Of a DNA stretch of 41,148 nucleotides, positions 8,633 through 17,499 are shown in pieces (the stretch's first letter is position 1; every line of letters begins with the position of its first letter). The translations under genes and the position numbers were made by a program. The DNA is from Candidatus Pseudelusimicrobium marinum (lineage in GTDB: Bacteria > Elusimicrobiota > Elusimicrobia > Elusimicrobiales > Elusimicrobiaceae): positions 1 to 41,148 of the forward strand of contig JABHZW010000019.1 in assembly GCA_018656005.1 (NCBI GenBank), read 5' to 3'. The notes under the pieces were generated by a model that did no database searches, was not told the origin of the DNA, and was given only the letters and a program-made list of their open reading frames with translations.

Positions 8633-9988
8633 TTACTTTTTAGCTTTCTTACTGTCGGCTACATATTTTTTTGCACCTTCAATAATTTTTTCTGCTGTTT
8701 TTGCACCTAAACCTTGTATGGTTGTTAGATGATCTACTGAAAAACCAGCTATTTGTTCAACATCGCCCATTCCGGCTTTTACAAGTAAATCTGCTGTTTT
8801 TGCGCCGATACCGTCAACTTCAGACAATACATTGCTTTTTTCTTTACTTGCTTGTTGACCTTCTTCTTTAAGCTCGTTTTCGCCTTTTACTTCTAACTGC
8901 CAGCCAGTTATTCTGGAAGCTAGTTTTATATTTTGCCAGTCTTTACCAATTGCTATTGCAAGCTGATCGTCTGGTACTATTATTAATGCTTTTTTCTCTT
9001 CATAGCTTATTACTTTTAAGCTTGTCGCTTTTGCAGGAGAAATTGCGTTTATTATATTTGTTGCAGCATCTTCAGAATGTTTAAGTAAATCTATTCTTTC
9101 GCCGTTAAGTTCGCCAGTCACCGCACGAATTCTTGTGCCTCTTAGACCAACACATGTGCCGATAGGATCTATTTTACTATCATTACTTTTTACCATTACT
9201 TTTGCTCTTACACCAGGATCTCTTTCGATACCTTTAAGTTCTATAATGCCATCTGCAATTTCGGATACTTCAACTTTAAATAGTTCTTCTAAAAGATCTG
9301 GGCTGGTTCTTGATAAAAATATGTATGGTCCTTTTTGACCTTTATCCATTTTGAAAGCAGCGCTTCGAAATCTTATTAATTGTTGATCGTCTTTTACTTC
9401 ATGAATTTCGGTATGGGACATCACCTTTACAATTATTGCTTTTACTCTTGAATTATGAGGATATCTTTCTCTTTTTAATTGTTCAGAATATGGGAGAATA
9501 GCTTCTGCTTTACCAAGGTCTACCACGACATCTCTGTCGGAATATCGTCTGACCAAACCAGTGATGACTTCGCCTTCTCTTGGTTTAAATTCGTTATATA
9601 AATTGTCTCTTTCTATGCCTCTTACTTTTTGTATGAGTACTTGTTTTGCTATTTGAGCAGCAATTCTAGAGAAATCTTTAATTTCTAAAGGTCTTTTAAA
9701 ATCTTCACCCATTTTTACTCTTTTTCTAATGCTCAAAGCTTCGTCTAAAGAAATTTCGGTTTCTTCGTCTTCTACTTTTTTTACAACTTTTACTATATGA
9801 TAGGCTTTTATTTTGCCTTTTTCGGTATCTATATGTGCTTCTATTTCGGCTGTTTTACCGATATTTTTACGAAGTGCAGATATTAATGCTTCCTCGATTG
9901 TTAAAAGAATATCTTCTTTTTTGATATTTTTTTCTCGTTCTAGGGCTTCTAAAGCCATTATCATTTCTCTTTGTTGTTTTTCGTTCAT
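8633..9988 (-). CDS. nusA: Transcription termination/antitermination factor NusA
   Basis: NusA binds RNA polymerase and nascent RNA to modulate pausing and termination. The 451-residue protein has the expected order. The N-terminal polymerase-binding domain comes first ('EALEREKNIKKEDILLTIEEAL'; seen as REKNIKKEDILLTIEEAL). An S1 domain follows ('GEVITGLVRRYSDRDVVVDLG'; key part RRYSDRDVVVDLG), then the KH pair ('DPIGTCVGLRGTRI' and 'VPDDQLAIAIGKDWQN'). The C-terminal helix-hairpin-helix part is 'VDGIGAKTADLLVKAGM' plus 'TIQGLGAKTAEKI'. The start has AGAGGA upstream. It is flanked by rimP and infB, the usual transcription unit, with palindromic repeats in both gaps. Confidence 0.97.
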   Translation of the reverse strand: MNEKQQREMIMALEALEREKNIKKEDILLTIEEALISALRKNIGKTAEIEAHIDTEKGKIKAYHIVKVVKKVEDEETEISLDEALSIRKRVKMGEDFKRPLEIKDFSRIAAQIAKQVLIQKVRGIERDNLYNEFKPREGEVITGLVRRYSDRDVVVDLGKAEAILPYSEQLKRERYPHNSRVKAIIVKVMSHTEIHEVKDDQQLIRFRSAAFKMDKGQKGPYIFLSRTSPDLLEELFKVEVSEIADGIIELKGIERDPGVRAKVMVKSNDSKIDPIGTCVGLRGTRIRAVTGELNGERIDLLKHSEDAATNIINAISPAKATSLKVISYEEKKALIIVPDDQLAIAIGKDWQNIKLASRITGWQLEVKGENELKEEGQQASKEKSNVLSEVDGIGAKTADLLVKAGMGDVEQIAGFSVDHLTTIQGLGAKTAEKIIEGAKKYVADSKKAKK

Positions 9989-10008
9989 TTTTATTTTCCT
10001 CTTCCCTT

Positions 10009-10090
10009 GTCATTGCGGACTTGATCCGCAATCTAGGTCTTCTTATAAACTTATTTTATCCTGGATTCTGAATCAAGTTCAGAATGACAG
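10009..10090. repeat. Dispersed palindromic repeat (REP-like) between rimP and nusA
   Basis: It starts GTCATTGCGG and closes with CAGAATGACAG. The hairpins are TTGCGGA-CTTGA-TCCGCAA and CTGAATCAAGTTCAG. It is a relative of the repeat at 8561-8624 and of units at 28214-28361. Confidence 0.8.
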
Positions 10091-10098
10091 GGGTAGTT

Positions 10099-10566
10099 TT
10101 AAATCTTTCTAAACTCTAGTTCTGGGTTTAGATTTGCTTTTTTAATATTGTCGTATTTGAAGTCAAATTCTGTGGTGCCATCATCTAAAATTATACCTTT
10201 ATCGTCTGCTTTGGTTATACTACCTGTAAACATACCTCTTTTTTCGATAGCTTCTTTAGTAAATATTTTCACCCTGCTACCTATGAACTTTTTGAAATGT
10301 TCTGGTTTTTTTAATGCTCTGTATATACCCGGCGAGGATACTTCTAATATATAAGCACCTTCTACTAATTTTTCCATATCTAAGATACTTTCTACTTTAT
10401 CTGATAAATCTTGACAGTCGCCTAAATTAATGCCACCTTCTTTATCTAAAAAAAACTGTAATTCTTTTTTTGGACCATTGGTTTTTATTACCAAATCCAC
10501 AACTTCTACACCTTGTGGTTCTAGGGCTTTTGATACTTGTTCTTCTATTTCGTGTTTTGTCGCCAT
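10099..10566 (-). CDS. rimP: Ribosome maturation factor RimP
   Basis: RimP helps assemble the 30S subunit. The 155-residue protein shows the YhbC/RimP pattern: 'ALEPQGVEVVDLVIK', then 'LQFFLDKEGGINLGDCQDLSDKVES' (core GGINLGDCQDLSDKVE), 'YILEVSSPGIYRALKKPEHF' and 'FIGSRVKIFTKE'. I start at the ATG at 10566, which has AGAGG 8 bp upstream. The frame stays open to 10605, but that extension lies inside a strong hairpin and is not part of the family. nusA follows after a repeat. Confidence 0.93.
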   Translation of the reverse strand: MATKHEIEEQVSKALEPQGVEVVDLVIKTNGPKKELQFFLDKEGGINLGDCQDLSDKVESILDMEKLVEGAYILEVSSPGIYRALKKPEHFKKFIGSRVKIFTKEAIEKRGMFTGSITKADDKGIILDDGTTEFDFKYDNIKKANLNPELEFRKI

Positions 10567-10587
10567 AAAAATACCTCTTTTTAAATA

Positions 10588-10616
10588 ATAGGCGACTTGG
10601 TTCACAAGTCGCCTAT
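10588..10616 (-). promoter_or_regulatory. Strong hairpin directly before rimP
   Basis: ATAGGCGACTTG and CAAGTCGCCTAT form a perfect 12-bp stem with a 5-nt loop, ending 21 bp before the rimP start codon. Downstream on the minus strand the sequence is TATTTAAA rather than a long T run, so it looks more like an attenuator, processing site or mRNA stabiliser than a full terminator. It separates proS from rimP-nusA-infB. Confidence 0.6.
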
Positions 10617-10652
10617 CAATATCACTATATATAGTATATAACTTTTAAATAC

Positions 10653-11897
10653 TTAGGTCAAATCGTTAAGCTTGGTTTTAACATTTGATAGTTTCCACAT
10701 TGTTGCATCTTTACTATCTCTTGCTTTATATTCCAAACTATCTTCTTTGAGTGTTTTTGGACTTATTACTATTCTATTATATAGCCCAAGCAAATCTGCT
10801 TCTTTAAACTTCATACCCGCTTGTTTATCCCTATCATCCCATAATACTGTTAAGCCTTTAGCCTCTGCTTCCTTTATAAGCAGATTTGCTTGGGCTAGCA
10901 CTTTTTCGTCTTCGCTTATGGTTATTAGGTGAATGTCGAAGGGAGAAAGTTCTTTAGTCCAAATAATGCCATTTTCGTCATTATTTTGCTCTATGGCTGC
11001 TGCCACAACTCTTGTAATACCGATTCCATAACAACCCATTATGAAAGGGTGAGGTTTTTGATCTTTATCTAAAAATTTAGCATTCATACTTTCGCTATAT
11101 TTTGTACCTAGCTTAAATGTATGGCCAACTTCTATACCGCGGGTGGATTTATATTTTCCGCCACATTTAGGACATTTTTTACCGGCTTTTTCATCGCTGG
11201 CAAGGTATCCACATTCTACACATTCTTCTATGGCATTTTCACCCGTTTTGGCTACTACCATAAATTCATGCGAAAAACTTCCACCGATATTTCCACTTTC
11301 TGCTTCAACAGCTTTAAATTTCAAACCACATCGGGTGAAAATGCTGTTATAAGCTTCAAAAAACTTTTTATACCACTCTTCGGCTGATTTTTCTGTTTCG
11401 CAAAAACTATAAGCATCTTTCATATAAAATTCTCTTGAACGCATTACACCAAACCTTGGTCTAATTTCGTCTCTAAATTTTATACAAAATTGATATAACA
11501 CAACTGGTAATTGCTTGTAAGATTTCACATCTCGTTTGATACAATTTGTAATAACTTCTTCGGCGGTGGGGGAGAAACAGAAACCTGCTTTTTTTCTATC
11601 TTCAAATCTTAGGAGTTCTTTGCCGTATTCTTCCCACCTGCCTGTTTGCTCCCAGAGTTCTTTTGGTTGGACGGCGGGGAGGATAATTTCTTGTGCGCCG
11701 ATTTTATCTAGCTCTTCTCTGACGATATTTTCTACTTTTCTAAAGACTCGCATACCGAGTGGCAACCATTCGTAGATACCACTGGCAGTTTTTCTGATAA
11801 GCCCAGCACGAAGCATAAGTTTGGCAGATAAAATATCTGCATCTTTTGGTGCTTCTTTTAATGTGGGGGCATAATATTGTGAAAGTTTATTTGCCAT
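10653..11897 (-). CDS. proS: Prolyl-tRNA synthetase lacking the editing insertion domain
   Basis: This class II enzyme charges tRNA-Pro. Motif 1 ('LPLGMRVFRKV'), the YGKELLRFEDR region, motif 2 ('FRDEIRPRFGVMRSREF'), and motif 3 ('GCYGIGITRVVAAAIEQ') are present, and a C-terminal anticodon-binding domain ('WDDRDKQAGMKFKEADL') follows. Length is 414 aa against ~570 for the standard bacterial form. The ~180-residue YbaK-like INS editing domain is absent between motifs 2 and 3. In its place is a compact zinc-ribbon-like stretch 'CVECGYLASDEKAGKKCPKC', joining directly to 'RGIEVGHTFKLGTKYSE'. An AAGGA precedes the ATG, and ispG ends 5 bp upstream. A perfect 20-bp inverted repeat lies inside (10782-10801 and 10878-10897). 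Confidence 0.95.
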   Translation of the reverse strand: MANKLSQYYAPTLKEAPKDADILSAKLMLRAGLIRKTASGIYEWLPLGMRVFRKVENIVREELDKIGAQEIILPAVQPKELWEQTGRWEEYGKELLRFEDRKKAGFCFSPTAEEVITNCIKRDVKSYKQLPVVLYQFCIKFRDEIRPRFGVMRSREFYMKDAYSFCETEKSAEEWYKKFFEAYNSIFTRCGLKFKAVEAESGNIGGSFSHEFMVVAKTGENAIEECVECGYLASDEKAGKKCPKCGGKYKSTRGIEVGHTFKLGTKYSESMNAKFLDKDQKPHPFIMGCYGIGITRVVAAAIEQNNDENGIIWTKELSPFDIHLITISEDEKVLAQANLLIKEAEAKGLTVLWDDRDKQAGMKFKEADLLGLYNRIVISPKTLKEDSLEYKARDSKDATMWKLSNVKTKLNDLT

Positions 11898-11902
11898 ATT
11901 TT

Positions 11903-12967
11903 TTATTCCTTTATTTTATTTATTATAGTAGATATCCATTCTTTTTGCGATAGTTTTTTGGTTTGTTTGCCAGCTTCGAAAAATATTCCTTTGGATTTTC
12001 CACCAGCTATTCCGAAATCAGATTCCTTCGCTTCGCCTGGCCCGTTCACTATGCAACCCATCACCGCTATCTTTTTGCCAGTGGACTTTTTAAGTAGTTC
12101 TGGATCATTATAAATTCTATCCTCAAGTTCTTTGACCACACTTGCCACATCAACCTCGCATCGTCCACAAGTAGGACAGGATATTATATTAGGTCCATAT
12201 TCGCGAAGCCCTAAAGTTTTTAAAATTTCGTATGCTGTGCGAACTTGTAAAATCGGCGATTCGGTCAACGATACTCGTATCGTTGCACCGATTTTGCTTC
12301 GCAAAAGCTCCGACATCGCTATCGCCGATTTTACACTCCCAGCGATAAAACTTCCAGCTTCGGTCAAACCAATATGTTGAGGTATCTCTGGCATTTGCTT
12401 TGCAAATTTTTTGCAAGCTAAAACCGTTCTATTTAAATCGTCTGCTTTCAACGATACTAATACTTGTTTGAAATTTAATTGTTCTAAAATATTTATTTCT
12501 TCGATTGCTTCTTGCACCATAATATCTGCATATTTTTCAGAAGACCAACTACTCGTATCTGCATTTTTTATTGCTTTCAAACTTCCTGCATTTACACCTA
12601 TTCTTATTGGTATCTTTCTATCTTTACAGGCTTTGACAATATCTTTAACTTTTTCAGCATCGCCGATATTGCCCGGATTAATTCTAATTTTATCTATACC
12701 TTGTTTTATGGCTTCTAAGGCTAATTTATGATCGAAATGAATATCCGCCACTAATGGATTTGTTATTTCAGCTTTTATCTTTGCGATTTTTCGGCAGGCA
12801 TCCATATCTGGTACTGCTATCCGATTAATCTCACAACCGATTTTTTCAAGTTGTTGGATTTGTTTAATGGTAGCCAAAACATCGCGCGTATCTGTATTAC
12901 ACATACTTTGTACACGAATTGGGTTATTACCACCTAAAACAAATTTGCCTAATTTAATTTCTCTCAT
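11903..12967 (-). CDS. ispG: (E)-4-hydroxy-3-methylbut-2-enyl-diphosphate synthase (MEP pathway)
   Basis: IspG is the [4Fe-4S] enzyme that makes HMBPP in the non-mevalonate isoprenoid route. The N-terminal TIM barrel shows 'PIRVQSMCNTDTRD', 'PLVADIHFDHKLAL' and 'KIRINPGNIGD'. The C-terminal iron-sulfur part has 'ISCPTCGRCEVDV' and 'MGCIVNGPGEAKESDFG', which supply the three cluster cysteines and the family's Asn-Gly-Pro-Gly-Glu. Length (354 aa) is normal. The ribosome site is weak because a palindromic repeat ends just upstream. It sits between rseP and proS in the long operon, with dxr of the same pathway nearby. Nested inverted repeats lie in the coding region around 12248-12332. Confidence 0.96.
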   Translation of the reverse strand: MREIKLGKFVLGGNNPIRVQSMCNTDTRDVLATIKQIQQLEKIGCEINRIAVPDMDACRKIAKIKAEITNPLVADIHFDHKLALEAIKQGIDKIRINPGNIGDAEKVKDIVKACKDRKIPIRIGVNAGSLKAIKNADTSSWSSEKYADIMVQEAIEEINILEQLNFKQVLVSLKADDLNRTVLACKKFAKQMPEIPQHIGLTEAGSFIAGSVKSAIAMSELLRSKIGATIRVSLTESPILQVRTAYEILKTLGLREYGPNIISCPTCGRCEVDVASVVKELEDRIYNDPELLKKSTGKKIAVMGCIVNGPGEAKESDFGIAGGKSKGIFFEAGKQTKKLSQKEWISTIINKIKE

Positions 12968-12980
12968 AATATTTTTTATT

Positions 12981-13018
12981 AGCCCTCACCCCACCCCTCT
13001 CCCAAGGGGAGAGGGAGG
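12981..13018. repeat. Dispersed repeat ('AGCCCTCACC...GAGAGGGAGG' family)
   Basis: The repeat contains the hairpin CCTCTCCC-AAGGGGAGAGG. Two more copies occur at 34318-34371 (inverted) and 34412-34450. It fills the short gap between rseP and ispG. Confidence 0.8.
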
Positions 13019-13029
13019 AATTTTTAAAA

Positions 13030-14115
13030 TCATTTACCTGTTTCCACGACCTCTATTTCCTGTTTTTTATTTGGTTTTTTCATCCTGATAACATCGTTAT
13101 AAGTTGCAAAAATTAAAAGCCCGACAAGTAGTGTTAAACCAACCATACTAGCTTTTTCTACAACCTTTTCTGGTACTCGTTTTCTACGGATACCTTCTAT
13201 CATAAAAAACACCGCATGTCCGCCGTCCAAAATTGGGATTGGGAATAAATTAAACATACCAATAGCAACGGATATTAATCCTATAAATGCCATATAATCT
13301 GCAAAGCCTTTATGGACGGCTTTACTTATCATTGTGACAATCCCAACTGGTCCTGCCAAGTCTACTTTTTCTTTTTTATAAATTTTTGTGGCTAAGGTTT
13401 TTAGCGAATAATATGTCCAAAACCAGCACTGATACGCACCAGCTTGAACAGAACCCACCAAACCTATTTTCTCGTACACAAAATGAGGTGCTATGCCTAT
13501 TATTGCATTTTGAGTAGTATTATCTATCTGAGGGGTAATAGCTACTTTTTTTATTTCATTATTATGCTGATAGGTAATATTAACATCACCCTGAGTTTTG
13601 TGAATTAAACCCGCCATTTCTATCCATTTATCGACGGATTGCCCATTAACACTTAAAATTGTATCGCCTGCTTTAATGCCTGCTTGATAGGCAGGATAAT
13701 CTATAGCGATATCACCTATTTTGGTAGTTGCATTTTGAAAATCAGTGGCTGGTTTACCCATGAAAAATATTAAAGATGTAAATATCAAAAATGCTAACAC
13801 ATAGTTCATAGCAGAACCGCTTAATACCATTATCAATTTTTTGTACCAAGGTTGAGTACAAAATTCGTCTGGTTTATGTTTCGTATTTTCCGAGGGGAAA
13901 AACTCGCCCGCAGGTTTAACAAACCCGCCAAATGGGATTGCTCTTAATTGATATTCCGTATCGCCATGTTTTTTATACCAAAGTTTTTTACCAAAACCTA
14001 AAGCAAATTCTTCAACCCTAATGCCTAACCAACGGCAAGCTAAGAAGTGTCCTAATTCGTGAATAAAAATTATTAACCCAAGTGCAAATACTACACCTAC
14101 TACTGATAAAATCAT
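13030..14115 (-). CDS. rseP: RIP metalloprotease RseP (site-2 protease family)
   Basis: RseP is an inner-membrane zinc protease that cleaves within membranes, for example anti-sigma factors and leftover signal peptides. The zinc motif H19-E20-L-G-H23 ('IFIHELGHFLACRW') sits in the first membrane helix. The 'LAFGFGKKLW'-like region reads 'EFALGFGKKLW'. A PDZ domain ('YPAYQAGIKAGDTILSVNGQ') occupies the periplasmic middle. The third zinc ligand region is 'FPIPILDGGHAVFFMIEGI'. Length (361 aa) is slightly short because there is one PDZ domain rather than two. The start overlaps the dxr stop in an ATGA, so the two are translationally coupled, a common dxr-rseP arrangement. Confidence 0.95.
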   Translation of the reverse strand: MILSVVGVVFALGLIIFIHELGHFLACRWLGIRVEEFALGFGKKLWYKKHGDTEYQLRAIPFGGFVKPAGEFFPSENTKHKPDEFCTQPWYKKLIMVLSGSAMNYVLAFLIFTSLIFFMGKPATDFQNATTKIGDIAIDYPAYQAGIKAGDTILSVNGQSVDKWIEMAGLIHKTQGDVNITYQHNNEIKKVAITPQIDNTTQNAIIGIAPHFVYEKIGLVGSVQAGAYQCWFWTYYSLKTLATKIYKKEKVDLAGPVGIVTMISKAVHKGFADYMAFIGLISVAIGMFNLFPIPILDGGHAVFFMIEGIRRKRVPEKVVEKASMVGLTLLVGLLIFATYNDVIRMKKPNKKQEIEVVETGK

Positions 14116-15290: not shown

Positions 15291-16112
15291 CTATAAAATA
15301 AAAAATAAAACTGCGTAATAAAAAATTGGTGCGAGTAAAATAAAACTATCAAACCTATCCAAAATACCGCCATGTCCAGGGAGCAAATTAGAAGAATCTT
15401 TAACACCTGTACTTCGTTTTATTAAACTTTCAGCCAAATCTGATATTTGTCCTACCACCCCGATAATAAACCCTAAAATTACAGCTTCAGTGGTGGAAAT
15501 ACCTACTCCTGCAAGCAACAAATTATTTAAAATAACCGTAACCATTACAGCACCCAAAACACCTGCAATTGCACCTTCCCAACTTTTCTTTGGACTCACA
15601 TCTGCATTAAGTGCATGTCGTCCAAATTTTGTGCCGGCAAAATATGCGGAAATATCACAAGCCCAAACGGACACAAATAAAATTATCGTTAGATATTCGC
15701 CGTGCTGTGCGATTTCCCTTATACTTATTAAATGAACAAGAGTCCATGTGATAAAAAATATTCCAAAAAATGTATAGCATAAACGGAGGAAAGATTTTTT
15801 TCGGCTGATAATTTCAAAAAACACAACACCAAAAATAATCACACTTATTGTTAGAGGGAGTAAATTGTCTGGCAAATTACTTTCTAACGGTAAGCGACCT
15901 ATAATTAAGGATAAACCCAAAAGCAGACCAAACAAAATAAGCGAAAAAAAGTTGACACTTCTTTGTCCAGCTTTAAGGATTAAGCCATATTCGTATAGGC
16001 AAAGAGCCATAATACAGCCGATAAATACTATATAAGGAATATTCCCTATATGCACCGCCGCGATGACGAGTGGTATTCCTATTAAGGATGTAATAATTCT
16101 TGGTAAAAGCAT
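15291..16112 (-). CDS. cdsA: Phosphatidate cytidylyltransferase (CDP-diglyceride synthase)
   Basis: CdsA makes CDP-diacylglycerol, the precursor used by PgsA. The 273-residue protein is strongly hydrophobic with about eight membrane segments. It carries the family signature near the C-terminus: 'ESLIKRSTGVKDSSNLLPGH' followed by GGILDRFDS, with conserved Lys-Asp, Pro-Gly-His-Gly-Gly and Asp-Arg-x-Asp. 'DISAYFAGTKFGRHAL' and 'SPKKSWEGAIAG' are also typical. dxr follows. Upstream, a 15-bp inverted repeat and the duplicated uppS tail separate it from the rest of the operon; the ancestral arrangement would be uppS-cdsA. Confidence 0.96.
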   Translation of the reverse strand: MLLPRIITSLIGIPLVIAAVHIGNIPYIVFIGCIMALCLYEYGLILKAGQRSVNFFSLILFGLLLGLSLIIGRLPLESNLPDNLLPLTISVIIFGVVFFEIISRKKSFLRLCYTFFGIFFITWTLVHLISIREIAQHGEYLTIILFVSVWACDISAYFAGTKFGRHALNADVSPKKSWEGAIAGVLGAVMVTVILNNLLLAGVGISTTEAVILGFIIGVVGQISDLAESLIKRSTGVKDSSNLLPGHGGILDRFDSFILLAPIFYYAVLFFIL

Positions 16113-16207
16113 AAGGATATTCTACAAAATTTATTAAATAAATTTATATTAAGAAAGTATATTGAGTAGACAAATACACCATAAAACAAACAACATTACC
16201 CCATAGT

Positions 16208-16258
16208 ATTAAGGGTACTTTAAAATTGTACTTTGCCAAGAAGTAAAGTACCCTTAAT
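16208..16258. repeat. 15-bp inverted repeat between cdsA and the uppS remnant
   Basis: ATTAAGGGTACTTTA (16208-16222) pairs perfectly with TAAAGTACCCTTAAT (16244-16258) around a 21-nt loop. The minus-strand reading lacks a T run after the stem, while the plus strand has T-rich sequence after it but no upstream plus-strand gene. It could be an attenuator ahead of cdsA or a scar of the nearby insertion. Nothing else is seen in 16113-16312. Confidence 0.6.
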
Positions 16259-16312
16259 ATTTTATGTTTTTTTAATTTTTTTGTAAATAATTTATTTGTA
16301 TTAGGTTAGTTT

Positions 16313-16381
16313 TTAGATTCCGCCAAAACGACGAGTTCTTTGCTGATATTCCGAAATAGCTTTTTCTAGATTAAATCTTAT
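16313..16381 (-). pseudogene. Duplicated, diverged 3' end of uppS
   Basis: Read on the minus strand this segment encodes 'NLEKAISEYQQRTRRFGGI' and a TAA stop. It is almost identical in protein to the real UppS end 'NLEKAISEYQNRTRRYGGI', yet many codons differ at silent positions. It has no start and cannot be a gene on its own. The lipocalin-like gene lies exactly between the two copies, and its own stop codon falls inside this copy. This marks an insertion event at the uppS 3' end. Confidence 0.88.
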
Positions 16382-16796
16382 TCCATTTTAAATATGCAGT
16401 TTGGGTGTCGCCATTGATTGTAAATAGCTTCGTTTTTAATAATAAAGTATTCTTATCTACATCAAATATTCTTTCTTGAGCACTCCCTACCCAATTAGGA
16501 AAAATACTATGTGTAATTTTGTGATATACTACTTCACCCTTTATTTCATAAAATCCTGCATATGAGATATAACTTTCATATCCACTTGCTTTTTCTTCTA
16601 TAGTTCCTTTGAATAAATCATTCTCTTTGAATTCTATTCGATCATCCTTTGAAATAACAACAGACATATAATTATCAGAATTATAGGATATATAACCACT
16701 TGCGTTTTTGCCAAATGGATAGTATTCAACACCTTTTGAATCAATATTTTTCCAATATTCTAGCTTCCATGTTCCAATTAGTAGATTATTTTTCAC
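16371..16796 (-). CDS. Lipocalin-like domain protein (Lipocalin_5 type), inserted after uppS
   Basis: A 142-residue protein without a signal peptide. It opens 'LLIGTWKLEYWKN' and continues with 'YPFGKNASGYISYNSDNYMS', 'YISYAGFYEIKGEVVYH' and 'SIFPNWVGSAQERIF'. That order matches small bacterial lipocalin-like proteins ('L-x-G-T-W-K-L', 'G-x-x-x-Y-x-x-x-x-Y-M-S', 'P-N-W-x-G'). They probably bind small ligands, and no precise role is known. I choose the GTG at 16796, which has AAGGA 8 bp upstream. An ATG at 16826 inside uppS would add ten basic residues. Its location between two copies of the uppS tail suggests it arrived by horizontal transfer or local recombination. Confidence 0.75.
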   Translation of the reverse strand: MKNNLLIGTWKLEYWKNIDSKGVEYYPFGKNASGYISYNSDNYMSVVISKDDRIEFKENDLFKGTIEEKASGYESYISYAGFYEIKGEVVYHKITHSIFPNWVGSAQERIFDVDKNTLLLKTKLFTINGDTQTAYLKWNKI

Positions 16797-16812
16797 ATTA
16801 TTTTTCCTTTTT

Positions 16813-17499
16813 CTAGATACCGCCATATCTGCGGGTTCGGTTTTGATATTCGGATATCGCTTTTTCTAGATTAGATTTTTTGAAGTTTGGCCATAAAGTT
16901 TTTGTGAAATAAAATTCCGAATAGGCACTTTGCCATATTAAAAAATTGGAAACTCTTTGTTCGCCAGATGTTCTTATAATCAAGTCCACAGGGGGGGTGT
17001 TATTATAAAGATATTTTTCTAAGTCGCCATCTTTAATCTTCTTTTTACCAGACAATATAACCCTATTTACAGCATCTGTAATTTCCTGCTGACCGCCGTA
17101 ATTTATAGCCAAGTTTACCACTAATCCTTTATGCTTTTTGGTTTGGTTTGCCAATTTTTTAAGCCCAGAAATTATGCCAATAGGCATTTTGCTTTCTCGT
17201 CCGCTGAAAAGAAATTTTATATCTGTTTTTTCCTGCGAATATTTTTTAAGCATACCTTTCAAAATATTCATAAGCCCGTTAACTTCGGTTTTAGGTCTTG
17301 CCCAGTTTTCGCAGGAAAAAACAAATAATGTTAAATAGTCCACACCAAGCTCTTGGCAGTTTTTAATAATATTTTCTGCTGTTTTTACGCCTTGCTTATG
17401 CCCAGCCATACGAGGTAAACCTTTGGCTTTCGCCCATCTACCGTTGCCGTCCATAATTATAGCGATATGCTTTGGAACTGTGTTTGAATTAATTTTCAT
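16813..17499 (-). CDS. uppS: Isoprenyl transferase (undecaprenyl diphosphate synthase)
   Basis: UppS adds isopentenyl units to farnesyl diphosphate to make the C55 carrier for peptidoglycan and surface glycans. The signature 'HIAIIMDGNGRWAKAKGLPR' includes the catalytic Asp. 'HKQGVKTAENII', 'LTLFVFSCENWARP', 'NLAINYGGQQEI' and 'DLIIRTSGEQRVSNFLIWQS' follow, with the final 'TLWPNF' motif. Length (228 aa) is normal. The start is 18 bp after frr. A second, diverged copy of the last ~20 codons lies at 16313-16381, beyond a lipocalin-like gene. Confidence 0.97.
   Translation of the reverse strand: MKINSNTVPKHIAIIMDGNGRWAKAKGLPRMAGHKQGVKTAENIIKNCQELGVDYLTLFVFSCENWARPKTEVNGLMNILKGMLKKYSQEKTDIKFLFSGRESKMPIGIISGLKKLANQTKKHKGLVVNLAINYGGQQEITDAVNRVILSGKKKIKDGDLEKYLYNNTPPVDLIIRTSGEQRVSNFLIWQSAYSEFYFTKTLWPNFKKSNLEKAISEYQNRTRRYGGI

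Follow-up and report, generated by a model that had tools for sequence, protein, structure and literature searches.

The window, the whole stretch of 41,148 nt that was analyzed, is contig C44 of Candidatus Pseudelusimicrobium marinum, an assembly of 1.20 Mb in 62 contigs with an estimated completeness of 92.75%, an estimated contamination of 0.32% and a GC content of 32% across the bases scanned. Its minus strand carries a row of genes that, from their sequences, we take to be rpsB-tsf-pyrH-frr-uppS, followed by a lipocalin-like gene and a second uppS tail, and then cdsA-dxr-rseP. The uppS gene for undecaprenyl diphosphate synthase (16813..17499, minus strand; PF01255, E 5.9e-79) is an intact open reading frame of 228 aa; its nearest homologues among named sequences are from uncultured Elusimicrobium, in keeping with a position in or close to the Elusimicrobiaceae, and orthologues were found in 59 of the 60 genomes searched, this one counted. 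Its current 3′ tail, the first copy of the repeat (16813..16873, minus strand), encodes NLEKAISEYQNRTRRYGGI and a stop, and is probably the incoming one. Next comes the lipocalin-like gene (Lipocalin_5; 16371..16796, minus strand) and then the second repeat copy, a displaced uppS tail of 61 nt (16313-16373, minus strand) that is without a start, translates as FNLEKAISEYQQRTRRFGGI up to a stop, its coding content being (F)NLEKAISEYQQRTRRFGGI, and is probably native; reading upstream from it in its own frame, a stop codon is met. Beyond it lies cdsA (15291..16112, minus strand), in many relatives the usual gene downstream of uppS. The intact tail opens with a 15-bp block, TAATCTAGAAAAAGC (16859..16873, minus strand), that recurs once more in the genome sequence scanned, at 16359..16373 on the same strand, where its first three bases, which open the displaced tail, are also the TAA stop codon of the lipocalin-like gene (16371-16373). 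In a shuffle test this block was unexceptional (P 0.16) and, taken alone, non-discriminating. A third copy of its core, ATCTAGAAAAAG, overlaps the uppS stop just ahead of the lipocalin-like gene (16807..16818, minus strand), and all three copies of the core in the genome sequence scanned are at the uppS locus. The genome-wide scans took in 1,187,985 of 1,201,473 bases, leaving out bases 20001-33488 of contig C62.

The stretch between the second uppS tail and cdsA also holds a sigma70-like promoter followed by a 16-bp hairpin (16207..16303, minus strand), which has six counterparts elsewhere in the genome. In all seven, a conserved promoter (TAATACAAA.CAATTATTTACATAAATTTAAAAATCGGGTACAATATT; TTTAC, a spacing of about 17 and TACAAT) runs directly into a hairpin of approximately 16 bp with a loop of about 20 nt; the stems differ wholly in sequence between copies while their pairing is kept. 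The other six are at C45:68200(-), C28:15076(-), C23:1562(+), C45:34278(+), C17:50269(-) and C59:3387(+). An Rfam search of the region, the vicinity of this element included, returned nothing, and a simple promoter-plus-hairpin scan of 1.69 Mb of loci from other genomes found no copies. Separately, a perfect palindrome, CTATTTTCGTATTTAGCTAAATACGAAAATAG, has at least five copies in the genome (C10:1611, C10:1997, C11:17682, C17:49912 and C45:72645).

The original prediction placed the lipocalin-like gene between two diverged uppS tails that came from different lineages rather than from a fresh local duplication. The arrangement itself is borne out by the open reading frames, the repeat alignment and the profile match. 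The repeat pair (16310-16379 and 16810-16879) is identical at 54 of 70 nt with an offset of exactly 500, and the two uppS tails have about 77% DNA identity and agree at 17 of 19 residues in protein. From Asn-210 to the stop, a span of 60 nt, the tails differ at 14 positions, of which 11 are silent and 3 fall in two replaced codons. In a neutral simulation with 14 random changes in one copy, none of 200,000 trials retained at least the observed number of codon meanings (18 of 20). These data show that the tails diverged while both were coding; the silent bias leads us to reject the drift of a dead local copy and agrees with an origin in different lineages. The displaced-tail peptide is the sole second uppS match in the genome (E 1.7e-4).

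How far apart these lineages were can be gauged within the family, using comparison relatives that all belong to genera other than that of the source organism. The two tails share 15 of 17 core residues (76% in DNA), at least the likeness of nearly all pairs of family members, and the highest tail likeness in the family (13-15 of 17) is reached in pairs whose uppS identity is 71-90%. To other genera, the two tails are at about the same distance. The likeness thus corresponds roughly to congeneric distance, which points to a close relative, and not a distant donor, as the source of the second tail. Codon usage cannot separate native from foreign, since both rank low among gene tails (8th and 10th percentile). 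Folded as single DNA strands, the tails are unremarkable (z -0.99 and 0.99), which leaves an attC-like site without support.

The lipocalin-like gene matches PF13924 at profile positions 1-142 of 142 (106.4 bits against a curated cut-off of 25; E 1.5e-30), and by alignment its C-terminal end is level with those of its homologues or a few residues short; the gene therefore appears essentially complete. Judging from an upstream AGGA, it likely starts with the GTG at 16796 rather than with the ATG at 16826, which is inside uppS. Its codon usage and composition are average for the genome. It had no match in the 59 other relatives searched, and within the phylum (Elusimicrobiota) homologues occur in just 2 others of 295 genomes, at 33-35% identity. 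Viral contigs gave no match and the best plasmid match (41%, in Brasilonema) sits beside a polyketide synthase; none of these matches identifies a donor.

Comparison of the uppS-cdsA arrangement, as the original prediction had proposed, revealed a single uppS tail in the relatives, often with cdsA close behind. Downstream of 33 other uppS genes of the family there is no displaced tail (mostly within about 8 kb; 0.8-5 kb near contig ends). In one genome of another genus (G015; loci L026 and L294), the last 31 nt of uppS and the terminator occur in two copies spaced by 750 nt and identical over 101 nt, which enclose a type IV pilin gene in the opposite orientation (contig C2, about 224095-224850). 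The terminator T-run is kept by the distal copy only, which suggests that the distal copy is the native one. Pilin genes were considered as a general class of cassette and rejected: among 37 examined, only this one has a strong flanking direct repeat, and two weaker repeats lie between adjacent pilins. Type IV pilin-like genes are abundant in the Elusimicrobiaceae, with 6 to more than 55 scored matches per genome and up to 249 first-look candidates in one genome of 1.7 Mb. The G015 contig also holds an array (C2, about 194000-197500, minus strand; spacings of 1181 and 1503 nt) whose N-terminal parts are near-identical (197 aa, 94%) and whose C-termini are different, resembling C-terminal swapping. 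At six loci of a further genus, g6 (L015, L020, L025, L029, L030 and L032), a gene of approximately 230-240 aa overlaps the uppS stop by a few nucleotides without a displaced tail, and in several of them cdsA is about 0.8-1.3 kb further on.

A search for other genes with a displaced 3′ end, also put forward originally, uncovered two such tails at miaA, with different cargo. We compared the first and last 30 residues (heads and tails) of 1,027 genes with 4 kb on each side on both strands; the genes were called as longest ORFs, a simple rule that kept short genes outside the test. At 80% identity or more, the tails gave exactly three matches, uppS at +440 and miaA at +988 and +2042; all three are 3′ ends, downstream and on the same strand. 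Heads gave 22 matches, all of which, save a few weak short ones, are within tandem families such as the pilins. A stop-anchored peptide scan returned uppS alone as a startless case, the miaA copies escaping it by ending at different codons; the miaA tails, on contig C23, were recovered by a DNA scan of gene ends and by unanchored tblastn. In other genomes, mostly outside the phylum (614 genes at 79 loci), a single large identical duplication accounted for every downstream tail. This locus (L087, Clostridiaceae bacterium HSG29), at first a candidate for a second displaced uppS tail, was rejected: it is a 3.9-kb identical frr-uppS duplication, covering part of pyrH as well as frr and uppS, whose copies flank a 632-aa transposase-like gene.

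The miaA locus (contig C23, about 9002-13341, minus strand) consists of miaA and two stacked units of tail and cargo, with an older tail before plsY. The order is miaA, a ribosome-binding site, cargo1, tail 2, a ribosome-binding region, cargo2, tail 3, plsY and a gpsA-like gene. Cargo1 encodes 315 aa of an exported type with a resemblance to TraB/GumN under the cut-off. Tail 2 opens approximately 8 nt or less from the cargo1 stop and is identical to the current miaA tail at 98 of 102 positions; the ribosome-binding region after it is nearly identical to the one after miaA. Cargo2 (305 aa) is without a clear family and had no match in the 39 other relatives searched, and neither it nor the tail pattern was matched in viral contigs. 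Across the loci, uppS included, units hold one cargo ORF each, span 500-1,081 bp and carry no recombinase. Tail 3, KDLQNTCTQLINLL, is near the usual length in other family members, and tails 1 and 2 stop early, in KDLENINIV(Q); the tail adjoining the native neighbour plsY is thus probably ancestral, and the newest unit is probably the one closest to miaA. Tails 2 and 3 have an exact 35-bp block in common with divergent sequence on both sides (reproduced in 0 of 20,000 shuffles), a probable region of crossover or conversion. The miaA loci of relatives have no displaced tail within about 1.5 kb, and no miaA paralogue was found in the genomes searched. In other genera, relatives of cargo1 follow other core genes, for instance flanked by folE- and folP-like genes or preceding a priA-like gene, which argues that cargo1 moved between core operons. 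Because the distal miaA tail, beside plsY, has the family-typical longer C-terminus, we take the uppS remnant beside cdsA to be probably the native tail as well, an assignment that is arguable and short of proof.

These observations provide the basis for a model in which the uppS locus is a recombination scar: a segment made up of its own 3′ tail and cargo was acquired by homologous or homology-assisted recombination, which we consider fairly likely. DNA from a close, about congeneric, relative, carrying a uppS 3′ end and the lipocalin-like gene, would enter at the uppS 3′ end, perhaps delivered by natural transformation. Recombination within uppS would hand the resident gene the complete incoming tail and so keep the essential gene intact, and a second junction, where the resident tail begins, would leave the 61-nt startless remnant ahead of cdsA. 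If the DNA were a circle of tail and cargo, one crossover in a short identical block would give this product with nothing lost; if it were linear, homologous exchange within the body of the gene, combined with joining over a short identity at the first bases of the resident tail, that is, homology-facilitated illegitimate recombination, would give the same product. The same kind of event recurs, twice at miaA and once at uppS in G015. A DprA gene and, at a contig end, a ComEC fragment are present; they are consistent with competence and prove nothing, and because such domains occur in E. coli too they say little about it. Direct repeats of this kind, once formed, should permit the cargo to be lost exactly, which would make the arrangement reversible.

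The original prediction of an inserted segment that brought its own uppS 3′ end and left the old tail behind fits all of these data, the miaA and G015 cases included. As to its mode of acquisition, the part that invoked homologous recombination, here widened to homology-assisted recombination, stands. A dedicated enzyme targeting gene ends, or a fixed attachment site in uppS, is not supported, because the boundaries differ (61 vs 31 nt from the gene end), there is no recombinase in the inserts and 33 other uppS genes of the family are free of a displaced tail within the downstream sequence covered, mostly about 8 kb.

Silent-biased divergence would also arise if a full second uppS downstream, kept under selection like the first, had lost its body, the lipocalin-like gene coming in with or beside the decay. 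We regard such a decayed tandem paralogue as unlikely, since a tandem second copy accompanies no other family uppS examined, the decay must have stopped exactly at the lipocalin stop codon, and two more independent decays would be required at miaA, which is free of paralogues in the genomes searched. It seems distinctly improbable that a trans-acting recombinase integrated a small mobile element or cassette site-specifically at gene 3′ ends, with the end restored as in tRNA-gene islands. Such integration would accommodate the same gene being affected in two genera, the restored gene ends and a 12-bp motif found three times and only at the uppS locus; however, its boundaries would be 61 and 31 nt from the uppS end and about 102 nt in miaA, no core is common to the loci, and the unremarkable folding of the tails, the recombinase-free units and the untouched uppS genes of the family all stand against it. 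It is very unlikely that the insertion itself generated a strict long target duplication, one copy of which then mutated: the near-identical 101-nt repeat of G015 would suit this, but a startless copy would not hold 18 of 20 codon meanings over 14 changes, and miaA tail 3 has a length and a C-terminus that set it apart from tails 1 and 2. A chimaera of strain variants, conceivable for a metagenome-type assembly of this many contigs with some estimated contamination, is likewise very unlikely, given that the shared uppS block is just 15 bp and usual assembly words are longer, that neither the window nor contig C23 contains an N, and that three displaced tails occur at two loci with a similar case in another genome.

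Returning to acquisition by recombination, we speculate, with considerable doubt, that the tails of core genes serve as portable attachment sites, and that a pool of units, each a 3′ tail, a ribosome-binding site and one cargo, moves among congeneric Elusimicrobiaceae by homologous recombination, stacking without breaking any gene, much like an integron without an integrase. The miaA units, with nearly the same tail and ribosome-binding region and different cargo, have the look expected of such a pool. Single-gene additions inside core operons, with no mobile element and with essential genes undamaged, have so far had little explanation. A diverged displaced tail is a scar from which the direction, donor distance and order of these additions can be read; the miaA stack records at least two successive events. 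Such scars can be found in any genome by a simple test, in which gene 3′ ends recur further downstream in the same orientation and 5′ ends do not, and the extent of operon growth through gene-end replacement thereby becomes testable.

Several known systems resemble parts of this anatomy. Genomic islands at gene 3′ ends bring a replacement 3′ end and leave the old end distal; here, in contrast, there is no integrase and no fixed core sequence, and the insert is the size of a single gene. In homology-facilitated illegitimate recombination, competent bacteria add foreign DNA with one end anchored by homology and the other joined over a short identity, the junctions being of 3-10 bp and usually accompanied by a deletion of similar size (PMC3240628 and references therein). 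The uppS sequence would be compatible with such an anchor and junction; however, no deletion is seen at the uppS junction, which counts against it, and the resident tail is retained whole from the block onward. In rhs C-terminal displacement, a new 3′ end arrives and the old one is shunted downstream without loss, so that arrays build up with the newest end beside the gene, and homologous recombination with circular intermediates has been proposed (PMC2935791). The miaA stack is similar in that detached 3′ ends follow an intact gene in series. In contrast, the rhs tips belong to a single giant gene family and are variable domains without homology to one another, whereas the uppS and miaA tails are homologous, the ends of these housekeeping genes being conserved and the novelty residing in a separate cargo gene. 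A further parallel is insertion with long target duplication, originally observed between two strains of Helicobacter pylori (Nobusato et al. 2000) and outlined in the accounts drawn on here as cargo without an obvious mobile element flanked by long, variable direct repeats of the target (PMC1643837, PMC3031569). At uppS, miaA and the G015 locus, cargo missing from relatives likewise sits between direct repeats of a target that is single-copy in relatives without the insertion (the 33 uppS genes, and miaA within about 1.5 kb). In those accounts the cargo is frequently restriction-modification genes, whereas here the repeats are gene 3′ ends, stacked at miaA. The identical G015 pair would fit such a duplication; the C-terminus of miaA tail 3, which differs, would not, and the uppS repeats are the versions of two lineages rather than one sequence duplicated. 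This difference, between two diverged coding versions and a copied target, suggests that the extra copy of the uppS end travelled with its cargo.
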